Positions 1,510 through 15,761 of a stretch of DNA of 64,000 nt are shown here, piece after piece. The notes under the pieces are model-generated. The model made no database searches. It saw nothing but the letters and a program-made list of their open reading frames with translations, and was not told where the DNA came from. The position numbers and the translations under genes were made by a program. The stretch's first letter is position 1. Each line of letters begins with the position of its first letter. This stretch comes from an uncultured Apibacter sp. (GTDB lineage Bacteria > Bacteroidota > Bacteroidia > Flavobacteriales > Weeksellaceae). The DNA lies in assembly GCA_945280365.1 (NCBI GenBank), contig CALYQD010000006.1, positions 1 through 64,000 of the forward strand. The letters run 5' to 3'.

Positions 1510-3360
1510 TTATTTTTTTATAACCTTTTGGGTTCCCGTTCCTTGTTCAGTCTTTATACTTATCATATAAATTCCTGAGGGTAAGTCTTGTAAATTTAAT
1601 TCGTTATTGTATACTGTGGGAATTCTTTTTACTTCTTTTCCTGTATAACTGTAAACATTTGCTGATTCTACTTTTGATGTGGTATTAACCTTCAATATAT
1701 CTACAACCGGATTAGGAGTAAGCTGCACTGATTCTAATGCTTTATGTTTGCCTTGGGAACCTACTAATTTGAAACCTTCAGGTATGGTTGTTTTAACATT
1801 CCTTGATGAAATCATTTCATCTTTTATTGTTACCTCATACTCAAATAAAAAGTCCGGAAATAGTTCATTGGTCATGAGACAAACTAATGTTTTTCCTGCA
1901 TTTTCAGGGCTTGCATAGAATTTACCATTTAACGCATACATATTTACTTCTTCATTGGTTGCTTTATCATACCAATTATATGTGGTAATTTTTCCATCAA
2001 TAAGATATTCGGAAGAAAGATCCAAAATTTCTAAATATCCTTTTGTTCCCCCATCTAAAGTGGCTTGCGGAGTTAAAGTAAGATTTTTAATTGAAATAAA
2101 ATTCCCTTGTAAAGTAGAAAATTTTAAGTGATTTGTAGCCCCAACTAGTTTAGATAATTTATTCATCTTCGGCAAAATCAATGAAATAAGTTGATTGGAA
2201 TAACAATATAATGAGGTTAAATTAACATTCTTAGACACATCCAAAGCTTCTATTAAATTAGAATAGCAATATAGATACACCAATTTAGTGTTTTTGGATA
2301 TATCTAATGTGCTGAGTTGATTTGAATAACAATATAAATCAATTAAATAAATATTTTTAGATACATCAATTGTTTTTAATTTATTCGAGAAGCAATACAA
2401 ATATTTTAAGTGTGTAACATTAGATAAATCTAATGAAGTGATCTGATTGTTATAACAATATAAATAAATTAAATTATAATTACTAGATAAATTTAAGGAA
2501 GTAAGCTGATTATTTTCACAATTCAAAGTTTCTAATCTAATGTTTTTAGATACATCTAATTCAGTTAAATTATTATAACTGGAATTTAAATACTCTAATT
2601 TAGTATTTGCTGACAAATCCAATTGACTTATTTTATTATTTTGACAATATAATTTTTCTAAATTTATATTATGGGTTAAGTCTAGCGTAGTAAATTGATT
2701 ATTAATACAATGTAAATATTCTAACTTTTTACTCTTCGATAAATCTAGTTCAGCCAATGCATTATTTTCACAATCCAATTTTGTCAAGTTTATAGTATTA
2801 GATACATTCAATTCCGTTAATTGATTATAATAACAATATAATATTCTTAATTTTGAATTCTTGGAAACATCTAATATTGTTAATTGATTATAAGAACAAT
2901 TTATATACTGTAAATTAAAATTTTTAGACACATCTATGTTGGTTAGTTTATTATTTTGACAATATAATTCCTCAAGATTTTTAAAATATTCACCATTAAA
3001 TACCCCATTAAATTTTCTCTGATTTATATATAATTTTACTAACACTTTATAACCATTGATTTCTTTCCATATAAATCTACCAATTAACTTATTAAAAATT
3101 ACTTCAGGTTCCCCATCTATTGCTCTGGTTATTTCGTCCCACGTAAGATCTGTCAATTCATAATTCCATTTTCGATCTTCTTCAGAATATTGCATTAAAA
3201 AATTCAAAATTCCATAAACATCCAAAGCATCGTAATTAGAAGTTGCAGAAGACACATAATTCTTTTTTAAATAATTTTGTTTATCTGAAATACTGCTTGA
3301 AGCTAATGCTACGGTATTAACTAAACAACATACTAAAATAAAAAATAAAGTTTTTTTCAT
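1510..3360 (-). CDS. T9SS-secreted LRR protein
   Basis: This 616-residue protein has a signal peptide (residues 1-20), a unique N-terminal region to about residue 110, and then about 14 LRR units of 21 residues with the consensus LxYLYCYNNQLTSLDxSKN. A beta-rich region follows at about 430-530. The last 75 residues form a type A T9SS sorting domain: PNPVVDILKV near 550, GxEVKR, a LPSGIYMISI-like motif and a basic end (KVIKK). By family knowledge the protein is exported across the outer membrane by the gliding/Por machinery and then anchored or released. It is a paralogue of the gene at 1-1209, with the same signal peptide and N-terminal region. The ligand is unknown. Confidence 0.9.
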   Translation of the reverse strand: MKKTLFFILVCCLVNTVALASSSISDKQNYLKKNYVSSATSNYDALDVYGILNFLMQYSEEDRKWNYELTDLTWDEITRAIDGEPEVIFNKLIGRFIWKEINGYKVLVKLYINQRKFNGVFNGEYFKNLEELYCQNNKLTNIDVSKNFNLQYINCSYNQLTILDVSKNSKLRILYCYYNQLTELNVSNTINLTKLDCENNALAELDLSKSKKLEYLHCINNQFTTLDLTHNINLEKLYCQNNKISQLDLSANTKLEYLNSSYNNLTELDVSKNIRLETLNCENNQLTSLNLSSNYNLIYLYCYNNQITSLDLSNVTHLKYLYCFSNKLKTIDVSKNIYLIDLYCYSNQLSTLDISKNTKLVYLYCYSNLIEALDVSKNVNLTSLYCYSNQLISLILPKMNKLSKLVGATNHLKFSTLQGNFISIKNLTLTPQATLDGGTKGYLEILDLSSEYLIDGKITTYNWYDKATNEEVNMYALNGKFYASPENAGKTLVCLMTNELFPDFLFEYEVTIKDEMISSRNVKTTIPEGFKLVGSQGKHKALESVQLTPNPVVDILKVNTTSKVESANVYSYTGKEVKRIPTVYNNELNLQDLPSGIYMISIKTEQGTGTQKVIKK

Positions 3361-4109: not shown

Positions 4110-4581
4110 ATAGAATTAACCGTAGATGTGTATTTTTAGCTACAACATGCAAAAGCAACAGGTGTATTGTTTCAAAATTGGAAATACCCCAAACCCGATG
4201 AGATTATAATTATTTATATTACAGAAATTTCAGCTTACGAATCCAGATTATTTTATAAGCGAGCGCTTCCTTATATTTTAACATTGCTAAAATAAGTAAA
4301 CCCAGCTGATATTGAGTTGATTATTGTTTATAGTTTTGTTTATTTAAACCAAAATTAGGAAACTATATATTTGATAGCATCAGATAATAAAATTCCGATT
4401 ATTGGAGTGGTATAAAATCCTTTTTTAAAAAGTAAAAATTTAGTTCAGGAAATAGTAACCTTCATATATTAGCTATGAAAGTATACTATTTACTGAATCA
4501 GCCCATCATATAGAATCTATGATCAGTAATTTTAAAATTCCAACTTTGTTAAAATTATTAATTAAAGAAACTCGTTCATAA
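4110..4581 (+). pseudogene. nfi: Endonuclease V (nfi) pseudogene
   Basis: Conceptual translation gives TVDVYF, a one-base frameshift near 4140, HAKATGVLFQNW, YESRLFYKRALPYILTLLK, stop, VNPADIELIIVYSFVYLNQN, stop, IPIIGVV, stop, then ESMISNFKIPTLLKLLIKET. This follows the order of endonuclease V, the deaminated-base (inosine) repair nuclease: VDV, GVLF.W, FY.RELP, VDGYVYL, IPxIGV, and a C-terminal helix ending IPTLLKxLDKET. The catalytic glutamate of RELP is alanine here (RALP) and the aspartate of VDG is tyrosine (VYS). With three internal stops and at least one frameshift the gene is dead. The identification rests on remembered family motifs. Confidence 0.75.
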
Positions 4582-5198: not shown

Positions 5199-5243
5199 GT
5201 GACCCCGGAGAGGCTCGAACTCTCGACCCACTGATTAAGAGTC
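5199..5243 (-). repeat. attL: tRNA-Lys 3' fragment
   Basis: These 45 bases are identical to 14808-14852 and cover the 3' half of tRNA-Lys from the anticodon loop to the discriminator base. The 5' half is missing, so this is not a functional tRNA. It marks the left attachment junction of the element. Confidence 0.88.
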
Positions 5244-5426
5244 TCTAAATCACCAATTTGTTCTATTTTTATCATTTTTCATTTATTCATAAAAACCTGT
5301 AATATAGAACTTTGTTTACAATATTATTTTCTTATCTTTACTTCAATTTATAACTAATCGCCATAGTTGCATGCAAATTGCATGTACACTTTTAGATATA
5401 AAGTAATTGTAAATTAAGGATATTGT

Positions 5427-6325
5427 ATGTATAAGTATGCAAAAGATGGAGTATCAGCTTTAACAATATTGGATGTTAGAAGAAGTAAAATATCTGGATT
5501 ATATCCTGTGAAAATCCAAGTGAAAAACAAAAATACTATTCCACTGGTAAAGAATTATATGTAGATAATTGGGAAGTATTATCTAGTACAAAAAGTAAAT
5601 CTCTCCTTGAGGTGCGGAAGGATATTCAAAGTTCATTTGAGATTGTCAAAGAGGCTATACAAGACTTATGTTCTGAAGGAGGGTTTTCGTTTGACGCTCT
5701 AAGTAATAGATTGAATAAAGGTGTATCTGATACGCTAAATACATTATTCAAAAATAAAATTGAAATATTGCGAGCAAATGAACAAATAGGAACAGCTGTA
5801 TATTATCAAAACGTCCTTACAAGTATAGAGAAATTCAACGGTGGTAATATTCCTATAACATCTGTATCTACAGACTGGTTGAAATGGTATGAAAAATTTA
5901 TGTTGGATAAGGACAATAGTTACACAACAATTGGAATGCATAGCCGAGCCATTCGAACAATGATGAATGAAGCCAAAAAGGTAGATGTGATTAAAATAAA
6001 TCAATACCCATTCGGTAAAGGTAAATATGAAATACCAACGAACGAGAGTCGTAAAATGGCTCTGACTTTGCAACAGATAAAGCAAGTTATTTCGTACACA
6101 GACGGCAATGAAGCTACAGAAAGATATCGGGATCTATGGTTTTTCTCTTATCTCTGCAATGGCATCAATTTTACAGATATGTTGCAGTTGAGATATTCTA
6201 ATATCCACAATGGAGAAATTACTTTTAGGAGAGCAAAAACAATAAGAACATCCAAAGTAAAAATAGATACATGTTTGACAGCCCAAGATAAATATAAAGC
6301 ACTTCTCGATTATTTCAAGATTTAA
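5427..6325 (+). pseudogene. Tyrosine integrase, frameshifted and truncated
   Basis: The ATG at 5427 opens a typical Bacteroidetes integrase arm-binding domain (ALTILDVRRSKISGLYPVKI). A frameshift near 5535 breaks it; the next frame continues with YSTGKELYVDNWEVL and the SAM-like core-binding domain to residue ~150 of the second part. The catalytic domain starts (LWFFSYLCNGINFTDMLQLRYSNI) but stops at 6325, before the HxxR and tyrosine motifs. Family members are about 400 residues with all of these parts. The gene lies next to attL, the usual position for an integrase that served this element. As it stands it cannot encode a working recombinase. Confidence 0.8.
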
Positions 6326-6483
6326 TATTAACATCATATACCTGAGCAATTAGAAAAATTATTTATGCAAGTGGCATTTGTACAAATTGAAAATCGAGCA
6401 TGATAGCCCAATTATATGATTATTACCATGTAAATCTAAGAATGTAGTAATTGTAGAATATGCTCAGAAAAAAAGTATAGGTA

Positions 6484-6783
6484 ATGAAAAAGTATGAGTT
6501 TGATAAAAGAGTACAACTAAATGGAGGATGCGATCGGATAATCAACGATTGGAGAGTCATTGATATTCATTTAATCCCTGAGATCATGAACGAATTTCAT
6601 GAAATCGATTTCTATTGCAACAAAGGAAAAAAAGTAATCTTATTGCGGTTAAGAAATAGGACTGATGAAAATTACACAATATCAGAAAGTCCTGAGATTA
6701 CATATTGGATAGCTGAGTTACCAATAAACATTTTAGATGATCCTTTAATTGAAGAAATTTTATATAACTTTGAATTAATGTAG
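6484..6783 (+). CDS. Hypothetical protein, 99 aa
   Basis: An intact small acidic protein starting at an ATG directly after the dead integrase. I do not recognise the family. It has no signal peptide or membrane segment and shows a mixed alpha/beta pattern (LLRLRNR, ITYWIAELPINIL). It ends five bases before the next gene, and the two are probably co-transcribed. Position inside the element suggests cargo or an accessory gene; no function is proposed. Confidence 0.55.
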   Translation: MKKYEFDKRVQLNGGCDRIINDWRVIDIHLIPEIMNEFHEIDFYCNKGKKVILLRLRNRTDENYTISESPEITYWIAELPINILDDPLIEEILYNFELM

Positions 6784-6788
6784 ATATC

Positions 6789-7196
6789 ATGCCGCGTCGT
6801 AAAAAACAAATAATACCAATTAAAGACCTAGCTATATCTAGCGAGATCATCAAAGAGTTGGAGCAACATCCCGAACTAGCGGATTACGACATGGACACAC
6901 TGCAAATTACCATACTGAAGAAACACAAACCTCAAATCCAAAACTTAGACAAAGTCATTTCCAATCTAAAGCATTATTGGGCGATTAACGAAAAGCATAT
7001 CTCTATTATTAATGGAGAAGTAGTTATATTCAAAACAGACATTATCAAAATGATGAAAATCTCTCGTCCCACTTTAGATAAATGGATTAAGGATGGTAAT
7101 ATAACACCTCAATATTCCACATTCTTCAAAAAACACATTTTTCCTCCTAAGCTAATACTGGAACAGCTCGAAGCGTATAAGGAAGAAAATAAATAG
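6789..7196 (+). CDS. Predicted HTH DNA-binding protein
   Basis: A 135-residue protein with a basic start (MPRRKKQ). Residues about 85-105 carry a helix-turn-helix-like segment, FKTDIIKMMKISRPTLDKWI, of the kind seen in excisionase and MerR-like proteins. The C-terminus is a lysine/glutamate-rich helix. It is likely a regulator of the element; this is inference from one motif. The IS256-family element begins eight bases after its stop, so anything once downstream in the operon has been separated from it. Confidence 0.55.
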   Translation: MPRRKKQIIPIKDLAISSEIIKELEQHPELADYDMDTLQITILKKHKPQIQNLDKVISNLKHYWAINEKHISIINGEVVIFKTDIIKMMKISRPTLDKWIKDGNITPQYSTFFKKHIFPPKLILEQLEAYKEENK

Positions 7197-7203
7197 CGGA
7201 GAC

Positions 7204-7223
7204 TGTAAATTAAACTGTGTCAG
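7204..7223 (+). repeat. IS256-type left inverted repeat
   Basis: 20 bases perfectly complementary to 8675-8694. It starts eight bases after the stop codon of the upstream HTH gene. Confidence 0.85.
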
Positions 7224-7262
7224 TAAAGAATAAATTATTAACTATACTAACACAGTTTTTTT

Positions 7263-8479
7263 ATGAAAGAAGAATTCGATTTTGAGAGTATCAATAACAA
7301 AGCAATGGAACAACTTAAATCCAGTAAATCCTTGTTAGGTAAAGATGGAGCTTTTGCTCCGTTGTTGGAAAGTATCTTAAATGCAGCTTTAGAAGGCGAG
7401 ATGGATGCTCATATGGACGATTCTGAGCGTTCCTGTGGCAATCGTCGTAACGGTTATACACCCAAGCAGGTTCAAACTCCTCTTGATGAGGTTAGAGTTC
7501 AAAACCCTCGTGATCGTGACTCTACATTTGAACCTGAATTTATCAAAAAGCGTGAGCGTATTTTGGCAGACAATGTTGCAGACCGCATCATTGGTTTATA
7601 TACTTTGGGCAATAGTACTCGTGAAATTAGTGACTGGATGGAAGAAAATCAGGGTAATCGCGTTTCTGCTGACACTATCAGCTCTATAACCGACAGTGTT
7701 CTTCCTGAGATTCAAGCTTGGCGTAGCCGTCCCCTAGAAAATGTCTATACCATTGTTTGGATGGATGCGATTCACTACAAAGTTATGGATGAAAAGAATC
7801 GTCCTGTAACCAGAGCTATTTATAATATCATCGGCATTAAAATCCGGATGGAATAAAGATCTGCTGGGAGATGTATATCTCAAAAAGTGAAGGTGCTAAT
7901 TTTTGGCTCTCATGCCTGTCTGACATACAATCCCGTAGAGTAAAAGACATTCTTATAGCTTGTACTGATAATCTGACTGGTTTTTCTGATGCCATTAGAA
8001 ATGTTTTCCCTGAAACGACCGTCCACACATGTATCGTTCATCAAATACGAAACTCCATTAAAAATGTGGCCAATAAAAACCAAAAGATATTTATGAAAGA
8101 TCTCAAATTGGTTTATAAGGCAGTGAGTAAGGAACAGGCAGAAGTCGAACTGGACAACCTGGAGCTTAAATGGGGAGAAGACTATCCTATTGTCATCAAA
8201 TTCTGGCGGGATAACTGGGATAAGTTATCCGCTTACTTCCAGTACTCAGACGGCATTAGAAAGATGATTTATACCACGAATACTGTAGAGGGCTATCATC
8301 GCCAAATCAGGAAAGTAACCAAAAATAAAGGTGTATTTACCAGTGACACAGCTTTGGAGAAATTAGTCTATCTGGCTTACCGAAACATACGTAAAAAATG
8401 GACTATGCCTTTGGATAACTGGGGGAAAACAGCACAACAACTGACTATATTATATCCTGATAGTTTCAAATTATTTTAG
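7263..8479 (+). pseudogene. IS256-family transposase, frameshifted
   Basis: Two frames add up to one IS256/mutator-type transposase of about 400 residues. The first (7263-7856) carries the N-terminal region (LESILNAALEGEMDAHM) and the first catalytic aspartate in VWMDAIHYKV. The second (from about 7871) carries the second aspartate in IACTDNLTGF and the glutamate in YTTNTVEGYHRQIRK. All three DDE residues survive. The break lies at 7840-7875, where YNIIGI passes into an early stop and the sequence KDLLG...MYIS is split over frames. IS256 transposases are not known to use programmed frameshifting, so I read this as inactivation. Confidence 0.85.
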
Positions 8480-8674
8480 GCAAAACATACTATATTCATT
8501 TTATTTATTAGTTTTGTCAGACCAACAAAACAGTGGTGAGACTTTGTACCATTGAAACCAAAAACGATTAGAGGATCGACCCCTAACCGTTTTTACCAAC
8601 AAAATTCAGGTTCCTCATTACCCATTGAGATAGGAATGTGAAAAACCTGATATTTTAAAAGTGAAAGCAGAACG

Positions 8675-8694
8675 CTGACACAGTTTAATTTACA
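8675..8694 (-). repeat. IS256-type right inverted repeat
   Basis: 20 bases complementary to 7204-7223. Between the transposase stop (8479) and this end there is a stem-loop around 8559-8596 with arms aaaaacg and cgttttt, which could terminate transcription. Confidence 0.85.
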
Positions 8695-8906
8695 CTACCA
8701 AATAACGAAAAATACAAAGCTTTTTTAATTCCTTTACATTGATCTGTTTGTCTATCAGTTATCCTAAACTGACTGCCAATGTCCTCCCATTCTCAGAAAA
8801 GACAGTATGATACATTGGAAATTGTCTTTCATTTGTCTTCGATTCGCATCATTTGTCTTAGCTGTGTAAACGTTTTTGTAATTTGATAACCTGTTGTTTG
8901 TGGTTA

Positions 8907-8914
8907 TATATTTG
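8907..8914 (+). promoter_or_regulatory. Bacteroidetes -7 promoter element
   Basis: TATATTTG fits the TAnnTTTG consensus. A TTG at 8883-8885, 21 bases upstream, can act as the -33 element. The next ATG is at 8954, in the excisionase-like gene. Confidence 0.5.
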
Positions 8915-8953
8915 TGCAAAACAAAAGTATAAACCCTTTAAAATTTGCACAGT

Positions 8954-9292
8954 ATGTCAACAATTATTATCACTGAAGAAAACAAGCTACGAAGTATTGT
9001 ACAAGAAGAAGATTCTAAGTTGTTACCAACTAATCAGCTAACAAAAACTGAAATTGATACGATGACACTTGGTTCAGCATTTGCTTTTCTTGCTGAATAT
9101 GGTTATCCTATGCCAAAGGCTAAATTATACAAGCTGACCGCATACGAACATATTCCCTGCCGTAAGTTCGGACAGAAACTTGTATTCTCCAGAAAAGACT
9201 TGCTCCAATGGGCTAAAAGCTAGACTAAACCAAAAAACAACAGAGAAGAAATTGCTCTCAATCTAGCCCGAAATGCCCGACGTAAAAGATAA
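8954..9292 (+). pseudogene. Excisionase-like HTH protein with premature stop
   Basis: From the ATG at 8954 the protein has a MerR/excisionase-type winged helix: LGSAFAFLAEYGYPMPKAKLYKLTA, then IPCRKFGQKLVFSRKDLLQW. An in-frame TAG at 9221-9223 ends it after AKS. The same frame then reads on through TKPKNNREEIALNLARNARRKR to a TAA at 9290-9292, which is the basic tail this family normally has. The truncated form keeps the DNA-binding fold and might still bind DNA. In Bacteroidales elements such proteins control excision and mobilization genes just downstream, as here. Confidence 0.7.
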
Positions 9293-9363
9293 CCGGTCAT
9301 GAAAGAAAAAGAAACAGATCGTTTGTCGGCACAACCCTCTATAAAATAGTTTAGCGCCCCTCA

Positions 9364-10084
9364 ATGAGCGGAGATTATATAGAAGAACGTCGTCCGTGGA
9401 ATTACGAAACACTTCGACAGGATCATTCTAAAGATTTTATCTCTCAGATTGAGAAGTTCGATGGCTTTTGTTTTGTTCCTAGCCATGTCGACTATCAGTG
9501 AAGCATTGATAGATTATTGAATAAATATGATTCGATTGTTAATTTTCCTGCACAGGGAAAATGTCTGACAATACTGAATTTTCTCACTCATATTTTCAGA
9601 GAAAAAATAGAATTAGGATTGGATTATTTGCAGTTGCTCTACCTCAAACCATTGTCATATTACCCATCTTTTTGTTGGTATCTAAAGAACGAAATCAGGC
9701 AAAACAACATTTTTGAATTTCTTAAAAGCCATCTTTGCCGGAAACATGACATTCAATACCAATGAAGATTTTCGCAGTCAGTTTAATTACGATTGGGTGA
9801 ATAAGCTGATTGTATCAGTCGATGAAGTATTGCTAAAACACAGGGAGGATTCGGAACGGATAAATAATCTGAGTACTGCTATATCCCACAAAGACGAAGC
9901 TAAAGGGAAGGATCGCAACGAAGTAGAATTGTTTTCCAAGTTTATCCTTTGCTCCAACAATGATAACAATCCGATAATTATCGATCAGGGAGAAACACGC
10001 TATTGGATACGAAAAGTAAAACCATTTGAAAGAGAAGACAATCAGATCTTGAGTCGGCTCAAATCAGAGATACCTCAATTCTTA
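9364..10084 (+). pseudogene. SF3/VirE-type helicase remnant (DUF5906-like)
   Basis: Pieces of one protein appear in successive frames. They are MSGDYIEERRPWNYETLRQD to 9501, a middle part with TILNFLTHIFREK and LGLDYLQLLYLKPL, then NFLKAIFAGNMTFNTNEDF, VDEVLLKHREDSERINNLST, FILCSNNDNNPIIIDQGETR and LKSEIPQFL. This is the P4-type helicase/primase C-terminal region found on Bacteroidales plasmids and mobilizable elements. The Walker A loop falls at a frameshift near 9690-9720, so no ATPase can be made. After EIPQFL the frame runs into remnants of another gene, indicating a deletion. Confidence 0.65.
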
Positions 10085-10173
10085 TCAATGCACAAGGCTA
10101 TACCATTGTACGAGATCAACAGCTCCAATTAGTAGAACGATTTGACAACCTATTAAAGAAAATCGGCATATGA
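10081..10173 (+). pseudogene. Accessory Mob protein, C-terminal remnant
   Basis: The frame reads ILINAQGYTIVRDQQLQLVE then RFDNLLKKIGI and a stop at 10171-10173. This resembles the C-terminal end of MobA/MobC-type accessory mobilization proteins. The stop overlaps the ATG of the relaxase remnant (ATGA at 10170-10173), the translational coupling usual for a mob gene pair. The N-terminal part has been deleted. The match is by motif memory and is short. Confidence 0.5.
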
Positions 10174-10295
10174 TAGCTAAAATAATAAAAGGTAGAAACT
10201 TTAGCGGATGTATCGAGTATATACTCGATAAAGAAAAAGACACTAAGCTATTGGATGCACAGGAGCTAAGACTTAAAAACAAAGAATTACGAAAC
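10170..10295 (+). pseudogene. Relaxase N-terminal remnant (MobB-like)
   Basis: MIAKIIKGRNFSGCIEYILD followed by KEKDTKLLDAQELRLKNKEL matches the start of Bacteroidales MOBP-type relaxases, the enzymes that nick the transfer origin. Only about 42 codons remain; the tyrosine and histidine-triad regions are gone. The same reading frame then enters an unrelated HTH sequence, so a deletion joined two genes here. Confidence 0.65.
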
Positions 10296-10446
10296 ATGGA
10301 AACTTTGAATAAGAAAGAAAAAAAACACGCATCATGGTAACGCAGTTAAGCGTTTTCGCCATAATTTAGGAATTAAGCAGGATGCTTTGGCTTATCTGCC
10401 CACAATGGAGTATCGGACACATAAAATCACAGTACGAAATTTATAA
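10296..10446 (+). pseudogene. XRE-family regulator remnant
   Basis: METLNKKEKK, then HHGNAVKRFRHNLGIKQDAL and AYLP, is the first part of the helix-turn-helix of a common Bacteroidetes XRE repressor. The usual continuation after the recognition helix is missing; about 20 unrelated residues lead to a stop near 10446. It is joined in frame to the relaxase remnant upstream. It can hardly fold as a complete HTH domain. Confidence 0.55.
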
Positions 10447-10469
10447 ATATAAATATAAGATTTATTACT

Positions 10470-10477
10470 TATCTTTG
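10470..10477 (+). promoter_or_regulatory. -7 promoter element of MNT-HEPN gene
   Basis: TATCTTTG fits TAnnTTTG and lies 31 bases before the ATG at 10509. No clear -33 TTG was found at the usual distance. Confidence 0.4.
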
Positions 10478-10508
10478 TTTATAATGTATTTGTAAAGCAT
10501 TCGTTTAA

Positions 10509-11354
10509 ATGAAGAAATCAATATCATATTTGCCCAAACGAAAACAAGAAGACACGATATTCTTAGTGCCTGAGGTAAACAAACGATTGCCCGAGGCTCA
10601 AATGGTTATTTTGTATGGAAGCTATGCCACAGGTAAATTCGTAGAATATGACGAACGAGTGGAGTTTGGCATCCCAACTTCGTTTATGAGTGATTATGAT
10701 ATATTGGTGGTAACAAGTGGTGTTTCGGATAAGAAAGCCGGAAATATATTGGATAATATTGACGACCTATATTATAAAGAACCCAATACTCAAACCCCTG
10801 TACAGTTTATCAATGACGATATTAAGACATTGAACCGACAATTGGAAGAAGGCAGGTATTTCTATACCCAACTCAAGCAAGAGGGAATTGTATTGTATGA
10901 TAGTAGAAAATTCAAATTCGCCCGAAGACGCAAACTCAACTTCAAGGAAATACAGCAGCAGGCTCAGGAATATTTTGAAACAAAATTTGAGTTTGCCAAT
11001 GATTTATTAGAAGTGACTAAGTTTTGTTACTCACAAAGCAACTATAAATTAGCATCTTTCCAACTTCATCAAGCGACTGAAAACTATTACTTTAGCTTTT
11101 ACGTTGAGAAACAACAAGTAACATAACTTGGCTAAACTATCGGCATCTGTCAAACACCATTCGGAAGAGTTGGCACAAGTTTTTCCTCGAAACAATGCGG
11201 AAGAAAAACGCTTGTTCGAACTGCTAAAAGCTGCCTATATCGAAGCTCACTATTCTGGTAACGAAAGATGATATTGATGCCCTTAGAACTTCTTAGAAAT
11301 ATTACAAAGCGTATTTGTGAGGAGAAGATTGGGGAGTATGGGGAGAGGAAGTAA
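10509..11354 (+). pseudogene. MNT-HEPN protein, frameshifted
   Basis: The first 205 codons are open. They hold a minimal nucleotidyltransferase domain (LYGSYATGKF near residue 36 and SDYDILVV near 61, the GS...DxD signature), then the start of a HEPN domain (YKLASFQLHQATENYYFSFY). After the stop at 11126 the HEPN domain continues in other frames: LAKLSASVKHHSEELAQVF, EEKRLFELLKAAYIEAHYSG and finally RNITKRICEEKIGEY to 11354. MNT and HEPN domains often form toxin-antitoxin pairs in which the nucleotidyltransferase modifies the HEPN RNase; here they are fused in one chain. Frameshifts and a deletion in the HEPN half suggest it is inactive. Confidence 0.75.
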
Positions 11355-11423
11355 TATTATTGTAAGAAAAATAGTATCATAGCTTATAGCTTACCACAAA
11401 TAAATTATTCTAATTAATATGTT

Positions 11424-14400
11424 ATGACCATAAAAGAATATCTAAATAACCTGAACAATCATTTTAAAAGAGGAATAGCAACTGAACATACGTTCAGAGG
11501 CGATTTGCAACAGTTGTTAGAATCGATAGTGCCACAAATAAAGGCTACAAACGAACCTCGCCGTATTGGTTGTGGTGCACCCGATTATGTTATTACTCAC
11601 AAAGATATTCCCATTGGTTATATTGAAGCTAAGGATATAGACATCGACCTGAAAGCCAAGCAATACAGAGAACAATTTGACCGATACAGAAACGCCTTAG
11701 ATAACCTTATCATTACCGATTATCTGACCTTCGACCTCTATAAAAAAGGAGAATTTGTTACATCCGTACAAATAGGCGAAGTGCGTAACAACGATATAGT
11801 TAGTTTAGATAATAACTTCGACAAGTTTACTCAGCTCGTTCAAGACTTCTGTCGCTACGAAGGGCAAACAATCCGAAGTGCCAAACGATTGGCTGAATTG
11901 ATGGCTGCTAAAGCCAGGTTATTGGCTATGTCTCTAAGAAATGCTATTGAGCAGGACGAAAAAGAAAAGAAAACCTCTGAACTGTCAGCACAGTTAGATG
12001 CTTTCCGAAGGGTATTGCTAGACACATTGACCCCAAACGAATTTGCAGATATCTATGCACAAACAATTGCTTATGGAATGTTTGCTGCACGATTGCACGA
12101 TGATACATTAGAGTCTTTTTCACGAATGGAAGCGGCGACCCTGATACCTCATTCAAATCCTTTCTTGAGAAAAATGTTTCAAAAGATAGCCACTTTTGAC
12201 CTCGACACTCGTATTGCATGGATAGTAGATGCTTTGGCTGATGTATTCAAGCATACCGATGTTTCGGCTATCTTAAAGAATTTTGGTAAATCGACACAAC
12301 AACACGACCCCATAATTCATTTCTACGAAACATTTCTTGCAGCCTATGACCCTAAGTTACGAAAATCACGTGGGGTGTGGTATACGCCCGAACCTGTGGT
12401 TAACTTTATAGTACGGGCAGTAGATGATATTCTCAAAACAGATTTTGGAATAGCCGACGGCTTGGCAAGTCGAGAAACAGTGCAAGTAGAACGAGCCATA
12501 GACCAAAGCCGTGACGGGCGCACCAAAGACGGAGCAAAGAAAGAATTAAGAACATATCACAAAGTACAGATATTAGACCCCGCCACGGGTACAGGTACAT
12601 TCTTGTCGGAAGTAATAAAACAAATTTATACCCGATTCCAAAACAACAAAGGAATGTGGAACGGGTATGTACGAGAGCATCTCATCCCACGACTGAATGG
12701 CTTTGAGCTATTGATGGCGAGTTATGCCATGGCTCACCTCAAAATGGATTTGTTACTTGAAGAAACAGGTTACAAAGCTCAAGACGAGCAACGTTTTAAT
12801 ATTTTTCTCACAAACTCACTCGAAGAGAGCCATCCAGATATGGGTACGCTCTTTACCTCGTGGCTAAGTGATGAAGCCAATGCTGCTAACCGAGTGAAAC
12901 GTGACACACCTGTGATGTGCGTTATAGGAAATCCTCCGTATAGTGGAGAAAGTCAGAATCAAGGTAAATGGATAATGGGCTTGATGGAAGACTACAAGAA
13001 AGAGCCGAATACAAACCAACGCCTGAAAGAAAGAAATCCCAAATGGGTGAACGATGATTATGTAAAGTTTCTTCGCTATGCACAGCATTATGTAGAACGT
13101 AATGGGTCAGGGATAGTTGCTTATATCAATCCACACGGTTTTTTAGATAATCCAACTTTTAGGGGGATGCGTTGGAATCTGTTGAAGACTTACGATAAGA
13201 TATACACTATCGACCTGCACGGTAATGCTAAAAAGAAGGAGGTTTGCCCTGATGGATCAAAGGACGAAAATGTGTTCGACATCATGCAAGGGGTAGCAAT
13301 CACCTTGTTTGTGAAAACAGGACAGAAACACGTTAATGAGCTGGGCAAAGTATATCATTACGATCTTTGGGGTAAACGAGAAGACAAATATCAATATCTG
13401 TTTGAAAACAATATATCATCTGTTCCTTTTGTTGAATTGGAAAATCGTCCGCCAATGTATTTTATGGCTCAAAAAAATTTTGAAATAGACGGGAAGTACA
13501 GCAAAGGATTTTCAGTAAATGAATTGTTTTCAATTAATGGAGTAGGTATGACTACTGCACATGATGAATTTGTTATAGATGAAAATAAAACAACTTTAAT
13601 CAATAAATACAGAGAATTTCAGAAAAGTGAGCCTAATGCGAAAGAATTACATTCTAAATTTAATGTTAAAACAAAGAAAGGATGGAATATATTAGAAGGA
13701 TGGAACAATATTCAAAATAATGAGGTAGCTAAATATGTAAAACCTATATCTTATCGACCTTTTGATAATAGACATATTTTCTATGAAGATAAACTTGTTT
13801 GGCGAACAGTCAGAAAAGTTATGCGTCACTTTTTACAAGGAAAAAATGTAGGGTTGATTATTGGTCGTCAAGGACAGGTTGTTGGTTCGATGCAATGGAA
13901 TTTAATTTTTTCAACTCGTTATATTGCAGACTTAAATCTATATTATCGAGGAGGTGGTTGTATTTTCCCTCTCTACCTCTACCCTGACCCAGATAAACCC
14001 GATGCTTTTCAAGGTGAAAAGCGAGTGCCCAACTTGGATATGGAGATAGTGGAGCAAATAGAGAAAAAACTGAAACTTGCTTTTATTCCAGAAGAAAACA
14101 TAGTAGTCGATTTGGCTAAAGGATATAAAGGCACTTTTGCACCTATCCACTTGCTCGATTACATTTATGCAGTTCTCCACTCCCCAAACTATCGTGATAC
14201 CTATAAAGAATTTCTAAAGACCGACTTTCCTCGTGTACCATATCCAAAGGATATAGATAAGTTTTGGCAACTGGTAGAATTAGGCAAAGAAATAAGAGAA
14301 CTACACCTAATGGATAAAAAAGGAGCAGCCAATGTAAACTACCCAAATGAGGGAACAAACATCATAACTCACAGCATCGGGCAACGAGATTTTGAGCTGA

Positions 14401-14639
14401 CCAACAACGAAAAACATACAGGTAGGGTGTGGATAAACGATGAACAGTATTTCGACAATGTACCCGTTACTGCTTGGGAGTTTTACATAGGTGGATACCA
14501 ACCTGCTCAAAAATGGTTAAAAGACCGCAAAGACCGTGAACTATCGTTTGACGATATAGAACACTATCAGAATATTATTCATGCCCTTGTTGAAACTGAC
14601 AGGTTGATGAAAGAAATAGACAAAGTAGGGGTAACATAA
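11424..14639 (+). CDS. Single-chain restriction-modification enzyme (type ISP/IIG-like)
   Basis: An intact 1071-residue protein. Residues 1-130 form a PD-(D/E)xK nuclease domain with D54 (GAPDYVI), E68 and K70 (GYIEAK). A helical linker follows. An N6-adenine methyltransferase occupies about 310-620, with WYTPEPVVNFI, motif I DPATGTGTFL near 386 and the catalytic NPPY at 503-506. The C-terminal ~400 residues are the target-recognition part, ending with GGYQPAQKWLKDR as in the type ISP C-terminal family. Type ISP enzymes such as LlaGI also carry an SF2 helicase; I see none here, so it should act more like a type IIG enzyme. It is the only full-length large gene of the element. No partner gene is needed. 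Confidence 0.85.
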   Translation: MTIKEYLNNLNNHFKRGIATEHTFRGDLQQLLESIVPQIKATNEPRRIGCGAPDYVITHKDIPIGYIEAKDIDIDLKAKQYREQFDRYRNALDNLIITDYLTFDLYKKGEFVTSVQIGEVRNNDIVSLDNNFDKFTQLVQDFCRYEGQTIRSAKRLAELMAAKARLLAMSLRNAIEQDEKEKKTSELSAQLDAFRRVLLDTLTPNEFADIYAQTIAYGMFAARLHDDTLESFSRMEAATLIPHSNPFLRKMFQKIATFDLDTRIAWIVDALADVFKHTDVSAILKNFGKSTQQHDPIIHFYETFLAAYDPKLRKSRGVWYTPEPVVNFIVRAVDDILKTDFGIADGLASRETVQVERAIDQSRDGRTKDGAKKELRTYHKVQILDPATGTGTFLSEVIKQIYTRFQNNKGMWNGYVREHLIPRLNGFELLMASYAMAHLKMDLLLEETGYKAQDEQRFNIFLTNSLEESHPDMGTLFTSWLSDEANAANRVKRDTPVMCVIGNPPYSGESQNQGKWIMGLMEDYKKEPNTNQRLKERNPKWVNDDYVKFLRYAQHYVERNGSGIVAYINPHGFLDNPTFRGMRWNLLKTYDKIYTIDLHGNAKKKEVCPDGSKDENVFDIMQGVAITLFVKTGQKHVNELGKVYHYDLWGKREDKYQYLFENNISSVPFVELENRPPMYFMAQKNFEIDGKYSKGFSVNELFSINGVGMTTAHDEFVIDENKTTLINKYREFQKSEPNAKELHSKFNVKTKKGWNILEGWNNIQNNEVAKYVKPISYRPFDNRHIFYEDKLVWRTVRKVMRHFLQGKNVGLIIGRQGQVVGSMQWNLIFSTRYIADLNLYYRGGGCIFPLYLYPDPDKPDAFQGEKRVPNLDMEIVEQIEKKLKLAFIPEENIVVDLAKGYKGTFAPIHLLDYIYAVLHSPNYRDTYKEFLKTDFPRVPYPKDIDKFWQLVELGKEIRELHLMDKKGAANVNYPNEGTNIITHSIGQRDFELTNNEKHTGRVWINDEQYFDNVPVTAWEFYIGGYQPAQKWLKDRKDRELSFDDIEHYQNIIHALVETDRLMKEIDKVGVT

Positions 14640-14767
14640 GACAAAATAGGCTTACATTTTACATCCAGATATATATATAGTTTGAAATCAGAAAAGTAAA
14701 ATCTAAGAAAATTAATAAACAATACTCGCTCTTCTATTTTGTGTGCAAATTGTGTGCAAGGATAAAC

Positions 14768-14798
14768 AAAAAAGGATTACAAATATTTGTAATCCTTT
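14768..14798 (-). terminator. Hairpin next to the tRNA-Lys 3' end
   Basis: Arms aaaggattac and gtaatccttt with A/T runs on both sides, able to stop transcription from either strand. It lies just beyond the 3' end of the reconstituted tRNA-Lys, inside the element. The element thus appears to supply a replacement terminator. Confidence 0.6.
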
Positions 14799-14807
14799 GA
14801 TTTTCAA

Positions 14808-14852
14808 GTGACCCCGGAGAGGCTCGAACTCTCGACCCACTGATTAAGAGTC
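14808..14852 (-). repeat. attR within tRNA-Lys
   Basis: Second copy of the 45-bp direct repeat (identical to 5199-5243). It forms the 3' half of the intact tRNA-Lys(CTT), so insertion restored the tRNA gene. Confidence 0.88.
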
Positions 14853-14881
14853 AGTTGCTCTACCAACTGAGCTACGGAGTC
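14809..14881 (-). tRNA. tRNA-Lys (anticodon CTT)
   Basis: A complete cloverleaf of 73 nt on the reverse strand. The acceptor stem is gactccg/cggggtc with discriminator A and no encoded CCA. The D-arm is agctcagttggtagagc, the anticodon loop is ctCTTaa, and the T-arm is ctctccggg-type with gttcgag. It reads AAG codons. It is the integration site of the element to its left. Confidence 0.93.
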
Positions 14882-14927
14882 AAAAACAAGAAAAGCTTGA
14901 GGAACTCAAGCGAAAATTTACTATATG

Positions 14928-15000
14928 TGACCTGGCTGGGGCTCGAACCCAGGACCCCAACATTAAAAGTGTTGTGCTCTACCAACTGAGCTACCAGGTC
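14928..15000 (-). tRNA. tRNA-Lys (anticodon TTT), copy 1
   Basis: 73-nt cloverleaf with acceptor stem gacctgg/ccaggtc, D-loop with agctcagttggtagagc and anticodon loop ctTTTaa. It is identical to the copy at 15055-15127. It is 46 bases from tRNA-Lys(CTT); all three probably form one transcript read leftward. Confidence 0.93.
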
Positions 15001-15054
15001 TCCCTAATTTTAGTATTCTATATTGACTTTACCATCAATATATAACAATTAATG

Positions 15055-15127
15055 TGACCTGGCTGGGGCTCGAACCCAGGACCCCAACATTAAAAGTGTT
15101 GTGCTCTACCAACTGAGCTACCAGGTC
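15055..15127 (-). tRNA. tRNA-Lys (anticodon TTT), copy 2
   Basis: Exact duplicate of the tRNA at 14928-15000, separated by 54 AT-rich bases. It is the first gene of the tRNA-Lys cluster in the direction of transcription. It decodes AAA, which is very frequent in this AT-rich genome and may explain the duplicate. Confidence 0.93.
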
Positions 15128-15242
15128 TTTATTTTAGTACTCGCTAAGCATTTTCGTTTAGCGAGTGCAAATATAGTGACTTTTTTTGGGTATGCAAATA
15201 AATATAATAAAAAATCTCATATTTGTAAAAAATCCAAAAATT

Positions 15243-15761
15243 ATGAATATTACTTTGCTGGGTTATATGGGAAGTGGAAAATCCACTGTAGGAAAAAGTT
15301 TAGCAAACTCTCTACAACTTGACTTTATAGATTTGGACGAGTATATAAGCGCACAAGAAAAAAAGTCTATTCATGAAATTTTTTCCGAATACGGAGAAAT
15401 TTATTTCCGCAAAAAAGAAAATTTCTATTTAAAAGAACTGTTAGAAGAAGATCATAGGGTATTGAGCTTAGGAGGAGGTACTCCGGTATATCATAATAAT
15501 ATGAATTTGATAAATAAGAGAAGCCTATCCTTTTACTTAAAAATGAATCCTTCGGAATTAGCCTTAAGGCTGAGTAATGAAAAAGAACATCGTCCTCTTA
15601 TTTCTCATCTGGAAGATGAAGATTTATTAGAATTTATTGCTAAACACTTATTTGAGCGTTCTCCCTTTTACGAATTGTCTACTTATAAAATACAAGTCAA
15701 ACAAAAAAATCCGAATGAATTATGTGACGAAATTATCGACTTACTCCAACTTGAGAAATAA
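15243..15761 (+). CDS. aroK: Shikimate kinase
   Basis: Phosphorylates shikimate to shikimate 3-phosphate in aromatic amino acid synthesis; cytosolic. From the ATG at 15243 the protein begins MNITLLGYMGSGKSTVGK, with the P-loop GYMGSGKS. DLDEYI supplies the Mg and shikimate-binding aspartate, FRKKEN the substrate arginine, and LGGGTPVY the substrate loop. HRPLI (residues about 120) is the lid. At about 172 residues it has the family length. Upstream ATGs in the same frame would add 19 unconserved residues, so I prefer 15243. Confidence 0.92.
   Translation: MNITLLGYMGSGKSTVGKSLANSLQLDFIDLDEYISAQEKKSIHEIFSEYGEIYFRKKENFYLKELLEEDHRVLSLGGGTPVYHNNMNLINKRSLSFYLKMNPSELALRLSNEKEHRPLISHLEDEDLLEFIAKHLFERSPFYELSTYKIQVKQKNPNELCDEIIDLLQLEK

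Follow-up and report, generated by a model that had tools for sequence, protein, structure and literature searches.

An endonuclease V-like pseudogene near the tRNA-Lys cluster of an uncultured Apibacter and its intact short relatives

Does the region at 4110-4581 hold the remains of an endonuclease V-type gene, and did the genome lose a repair function with it? The window (the whole stretch of DNA analysed, 64,000 nucleotides) comprises bases 1-64000 of contig C6 of a 2.57 Mb, 99.3% complete draft genome of 45 contigs. Gene distribution was surveyed in 99 related genomes (98 plus the source genome itself), including 8 other members of the genus, and separately in 395 genomes drawn from the phylum. 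38 proteins of the family were extracted, of which 33 were used for the active-site count; one truncated, one contig-end-cut and one divergent protein and two without ATG start were left out. The tree was calculated from 38 rows; of 39 loci, it lacks one that was not recovered and two that were cut or truncated.

The reading frame from 4080 yields a recognisable endonuclease V-like protein interrupted by stops. In a whole-genome search, C6:4113-4454 was matched by an intact homologue from the same genome (E 2.0e-16, 39% identity), with two TAG and two TAA codons within one frame. By frameshift-aware alignment, window positions 4110-4575 were matched to residues 1-165 of an intact 166-aa protein from another genome of the genus (G007), with 83 of 165 columns identical. 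This alignment scored 335, and the maximum among base-shuffled controls of the region (n = 25) was 41. Identity to the G007 gene was 54% over aligned codons. Genome match and alignment score both bear out the earlier note, which had described an endonuclease V-type pseudogene. Relative to the G007 protein, the region is interrupted by three in-frame stops and three frame breaks, lacks an ATG and is short of approximately nine residues. The exchanges of RELP to RALP and VDG to VYS named in that note were confirmed by translation and alignment to G007, as were its three stops (4137, 4293 and 4413); its single frameshift was replaced by three frame breaks. The fourth stop of the single-frame genome search falls between the frame breaks at ~4347 and ~4380. 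Coordinates are listed in Table 1.

Table 1. Features of the window at and around the pseudogene.
Feature	Position	Strand	Remarks
LRR protein with Por_Secre_tail	1510-3360	-	left flank common to the intact G007 locus
Pseudogene of short endonuclease V-like protein, whole length	4110-4581	+	old stop TAA at 4579-4581
ATA in place of the ATG of intact genes	4110-4112	+	
In-frame stop 1	4137-4139	+	
R-A-L-P for R-E-(L/M)-P of intact relatives	4260-4271	+	catalytic Glu lost
In-frame stop 2	4293-4295	+	
V-Y-S for V-D-G of G007	4326-4334	+	catalytic Asp lost
Out-of-frame stretch between two compensating frame breaks (~4347, ~4380)	4347-4382	+	borders approximate
In-frame stop 3	4413-4415	+	at invariant Lys position
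C-terminal part past third frame break (~4458, approximate)	4458-4581	+	invariant last Asp is Ile
45-bp exact copy of 3' part of tRNA-Lys(CTT)	5199-5243		outer island repeat
Inserted island, 9.7 kb, between pseudogene and tRNA-Lys/aroK	5199-14852		bounded by repeat 5199-5243 and tRNA from 14808
Three tRNA-Lys genes	14808-15127	-	right flank common to the intact G007 locus
aroK (shikimate kinase; name is our own reading)	15186-15761	+	right flank common to G007

For analysis of the active site, intact relatives and E. coli Nfi were put into one alignment. D6, Y43 (the wedge), E52, D74, K106 and D161 (G007 numbering) were the same residue in 33/33 proteins. In all 33 rows used, D6, E52 and D74 align with Nfi D35, E82 and D103, which gives the family the catalytic Asp/Glu/Asp, and the columns of the Lys and the wedge Tyr are likewise unchanged. 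According to PMC4842958, Asp52, Glu100 and Asp126 are the catalytic acidic residues of the mouse enzyme, and the strand-separating wedge holds an invariant Tyr. For T. maritima, PMC4650699 gives contacts of D43, residue 89, D110, K139 and H214. That the family has nothing equivalent to H214 of T. maritima was considered and rejected, as according to the same paper E. coli itself has Asp there; the family has an invariant Asp that aligns with an Asp of Nfi (D206 in our numbering, against D210 in PMC4650699). In one row not used for the count (L023), a His seems to stand at the H214-equivalent site (judged by eye). At the six invariant positions, the pseudogene has kept D6 and Y43, and the other four are Ala, Tyr, a stop and Ile. 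Neither the open frame nor the catalytic triad required of a functional endonuclease V is left in the window copy, where Ala has replaced Glu, Tyr the Asp and a stop the Lys. The loss of two catalytic residues had been proposed from the sequence before; this holds for Glu and the second Asp, and two further invariant positions, the Lys (now a stop) and the last Asp (now Ile), are lost as well.

An intact 175-aa homologue is encoded elsewhere in the same genome (G000:C10:90599-91123, minus strand; C10 copy). In a 26-row alignment, every invariant family residue was present in this protein. Its structural model (mean pLDDT 90.7) has an RNase H-like fold, and the best Foldseek and VIA matches were endonuclease V structures. 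The closest comparisons were T. maritima endonuclease V (3hd0, with 2w35 in the same enzyme group; Z 18.1, rmsd 2.3, 164 residues aligned, nearly the whole length) and E. coli endonuclease V (4xpu, Z 16.9), with approximately 20% identity between the short family and its structural matches. The C10 protein scored 29.1 bits on PF04493 (cut-off 23.4), but only 23.5 and 21.4 bits on two NCBIfam equivalog models whose cut-offs are 300 and 230. Untruncated members of the short family have 165-188 aa, compared to 223 aa for E. coli Nfi, whose N-terminal segment, inner insertion and C-terminal tail are absent from them. The intact short proteins are compact and, judged from the model, have the endonuclease V fold, and they would presumably act as metal-dependent endonucleases on inosine-containing nucleic acid.

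The position of the pseudogene was compared with that of the intact G007 gene (G007:C1:564644-565141), which has the same place and flanks and, unlike the window copy, an open frame with all invariant residues. In G007, two LRR genes are followed by the intact gene, tRNA-Lys(ctt), two tRNA-Lys(ttt), aroK and five further genes common to the window; except for the inserted island, gene order in the window is the same. The DNA of both genomes is collinear over the LRR start (69% over 407 columns), the pseudogene (66% over 308) and the tRNA part (98% over 45). In the tree, which was drawn with a midpoint root and has Nfi as a very long branch, the pseudogene groups with the G007 protein (support 99/95), then with G003 (99/92) and then with the intact C10 copy (98/89). 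Because G007 carries an intact gene at the same place, the window copy is the positional orthologue and direct counterpart of that gene and died in the lineage of the window; the C10 copy is an older, more distant branch. In G008, a genus member without family match, the site next to the tRNA-Lys cluster that holds the endonuclease V-like gene in G007 is taken by other genes, among them a VgrG-like one (assigned via a link to an L026 gene; L045:6707-9926).

The island encodes an integrase-like piece, a Mutator-family transposase in two frames, a DUF5906 protein, a nucleotidyltransferase and a 1071-aa type ISP restriction-modification protein. It starts approximately 0.6 kb past the pseudogene, which was not broken by the insert. 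A second copy of the 45-bp repeat was not found in the 20 kb of the G007 locus examined.

The neighbours of the intact copies were inspected as well. Two MORN-type genes and a YwqJ-deaminase-like tail precede the C10 copy; the tail scored 22.1 bits, short of the Pfam cut-off (25.9). The G003 copy is preceded by a related MORN-type gene (36% over 137 columns; typed by similarity). Near it, a YwqJ-like tail, again below cut-off with 24.1 bits, was detected together with a VgrG-type gene and a DUF4280-EndoU protein. It is conceivable, if somewhat doubtful, that a related copy arrived in the toxin-gene region of C10, that the tRNA-Lys copy became redundant and that it then decayed. Such an arrival is compatible with simple death of the tRNA-Lys copy and would add to it; it accords with the separate branch and the neighbours of the C10 copy and with the comparable setting in G003. 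Against it, a replacement need not be invoked, as no copy was seen at all in 4/8 other genus members.

Several further observations concern these surroundings. By eye, a second similar-looking tail piece follows the C10 copy. Within L025:8849-12143 (G000 C10), deaminase-like toxin tail pieces (one stop-interrupted), MORN-type genes, the intact endonuclease V-like gene and then a KptA/Tpt1 gene were seen. Within L026:5746-15237 (G003), VgrG-type, DUF4280-EndoU, MORN-type, endonuclease V-like, YwqJ-like tail and RHS-repeat pieces stand in series. Outside the genus, a MORN-type gene lies directly upstream of an endonuclease V-like gene on the same strand in L089:5012-5817 (G150, gap of 5 bases) and L085:4996-5898 (G045, gap of 57 bases); these two MORN-type genes are 40% identical, and MORN_2 scored for L089 alone.

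Among neighbourhoods of 35 loci, an ATG-started endonuclease V-like frame was found in 33 (not in L021 and L022), and the largest other gene family was common to five loci. The 30 loci whose near neighbours (60 in all) were searched comprised 28 from outside the genus as well as G002 and G006; C10, G003 and G007 were excluded on purpose, and very short frames in L089 were skipped. MORN_2 and ChrB_C had three matches each, among the 25 of 72 families listed. 20 of the 60 neighbours were rechecked singly: one was MORN_2 (L089), one T6SS_Tdi1_C (L020), and the rest were mixed. Nudix, phosphatase, MurB and peptidase genes were among ten further neighbours from gammaproteobacterial loci. The MORN_2 model matched in only 2/8 genomes, too few for a background rate. 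A toxin linkage as general rule was rejected, since neighbours are mixed and deaminase-like tails were seen only beside C10 and G003. The place of the intact C10 copy beside such tails is taken as a weak lead only. It seems very improbable that the short proteins of the genus travel with type VI/Rhs toxin cassettes and, by cleaving deaminated nucleic acid, give repair-type protection from toxins that deaminate nucleic acids, and that the arrival of a cassette-borne copy was followed by the death of the tRNA-Lys copy.

The earlier note had read the pseudogene as loss of a deaminated-adenine repair enzyme in the course of genome reduction. Some results could be read that way: in the source genome, PF04493 finds the short C10 gene only and no canonical endonuclease V; the two proteins matched by the HhH-GPD profile presumably correspond to Nth and MutY and not to AlkA; genus members without match have genomes of 2.0-2.3 Mb and those with match 2.3-3.3 Mb; and the C10 copy may itself be weakly constrained. 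The short family is, however, patchily distributed. It was found in 11/98 other relatives (12/99 with the source genome counted), in 4/8 other genus members and in 21/395 phylum genomes (source genome counted); beyond Bacteroidota, the compact family also turned up in some records of other phyla. With no match in 87/98 other relatives, some of whose assemblies are incomplete, carriage is the exception, and genome reduction is not needed to explain the loss. In the profile search of 99 genomes, PF04493 matches occurred in 11 and always coincided with a short-family gene, and no canonical endonuclease V was seen in these. Uracil glycosylases of family V and endonuclease Q are named as alternative enzymes in PMC8438529.

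Loss of the enzyme from the genome is not supported, given the C10 protein with its complete set of invariant residues. A second intact copy, which the earlier note had suggested to look for, exists and comes close to the intact orthologue that this note named as refuting; in the tree, it branches off further away than a direct orthologue would. Since G007 has kept an intact orthologue and the source genome a second intact copy, the case should not be read as loss of hypoxanthine repair, and that the genome was left without deaminated-adenine repair through genome reduction is considered very unlikely. The shifted mutation spectrum anticipated in that note was not seen in the pseudogene's own changes, where A:T to G:C transitions were counted at 10/168 and G:C to A:T at 16/64 sites, a weak test.

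For relative-rate analysis, pseudogene-only and G007-only changes were counted over 153 codons. With G003 as outgroup, codon positions 1+2 showed 51 pseudogene-only versus 26 G007-only changes (p 0.004), and position 3 showed 26 versus 32 (p 0.43). With other outgroups, positions 1+2 gave 46 versus 21 (C10) and 47 versus 21 (Chryseolinea lacunae). With all positions pooled, neither G003 (77 versus 58, p 0.10) nor C10 (70 versus 49, p 0.054) was significant, and Chryseolinea (75 versus 42, p 0.002) gave the sole significant pooled test. Excess change at positions 1+2, and not at position 3, fits lost constraint at the protein level. Pairwise dN/dS was 0.21 for pseudogene and G007, 0.13 for G003 and G007, 0.12 for C10 and G007, and 0.36 for C10 and G003, two intact copies. 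Dead and living copies overlap at high dS (0.9 to 3.2 across these pairs, large synonymous distances for dating), so dN/dS does not separate them. Fast change, with possibly relaxed constraint, may also apply to the C10 copy. G+C content was 26% in the pseudogene, 26-30% in adjacent coding genes and 16-20% in non-coding flanks. Of 232 positions identical in three intact copies, the pseudogene has retained 184. Decay is incomplete, and the coding-like G+C and the unchanged positions speak against a very old death.

Although indels and stops can be errors in a draft of 45 contigs, a working gene broken merely by sequencing or assembly errors is extremely unlikely, as four changed invariant active-site positions and the excess at positions 1+2 over 153 codons are beyond what a few errors can give, and the frames of aroK and the genes that follow are uninterrupted.

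Very probably, the short endonuclease V-like gene at the tRNA-Lys locus died in the lineage of the window and now drifts without constraint at the protein level. The ancestor common with G007 would have had an endonuclease V-like gene for ~166 aa between two LRR genes and the tRNA-Lys cluster. In the lineage of the window, start codon, frame and catalytic residues were lost. The loss was presumably tolerable owing to the second copy or to simple dispensability. The case is typical of the ordinary decay of one accessory gene copy.

A literature search on the compact endonuclease V-like family found no paper. In the case described here, the death of a gene is supported by its position, with the orthologue still intact in another genome of the genus and a second, intact copy present beside it in the source genome's gene set. 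The case also points to a compact group of endonuclease V-like proteins that has kept the full active site and scores low on standard models.
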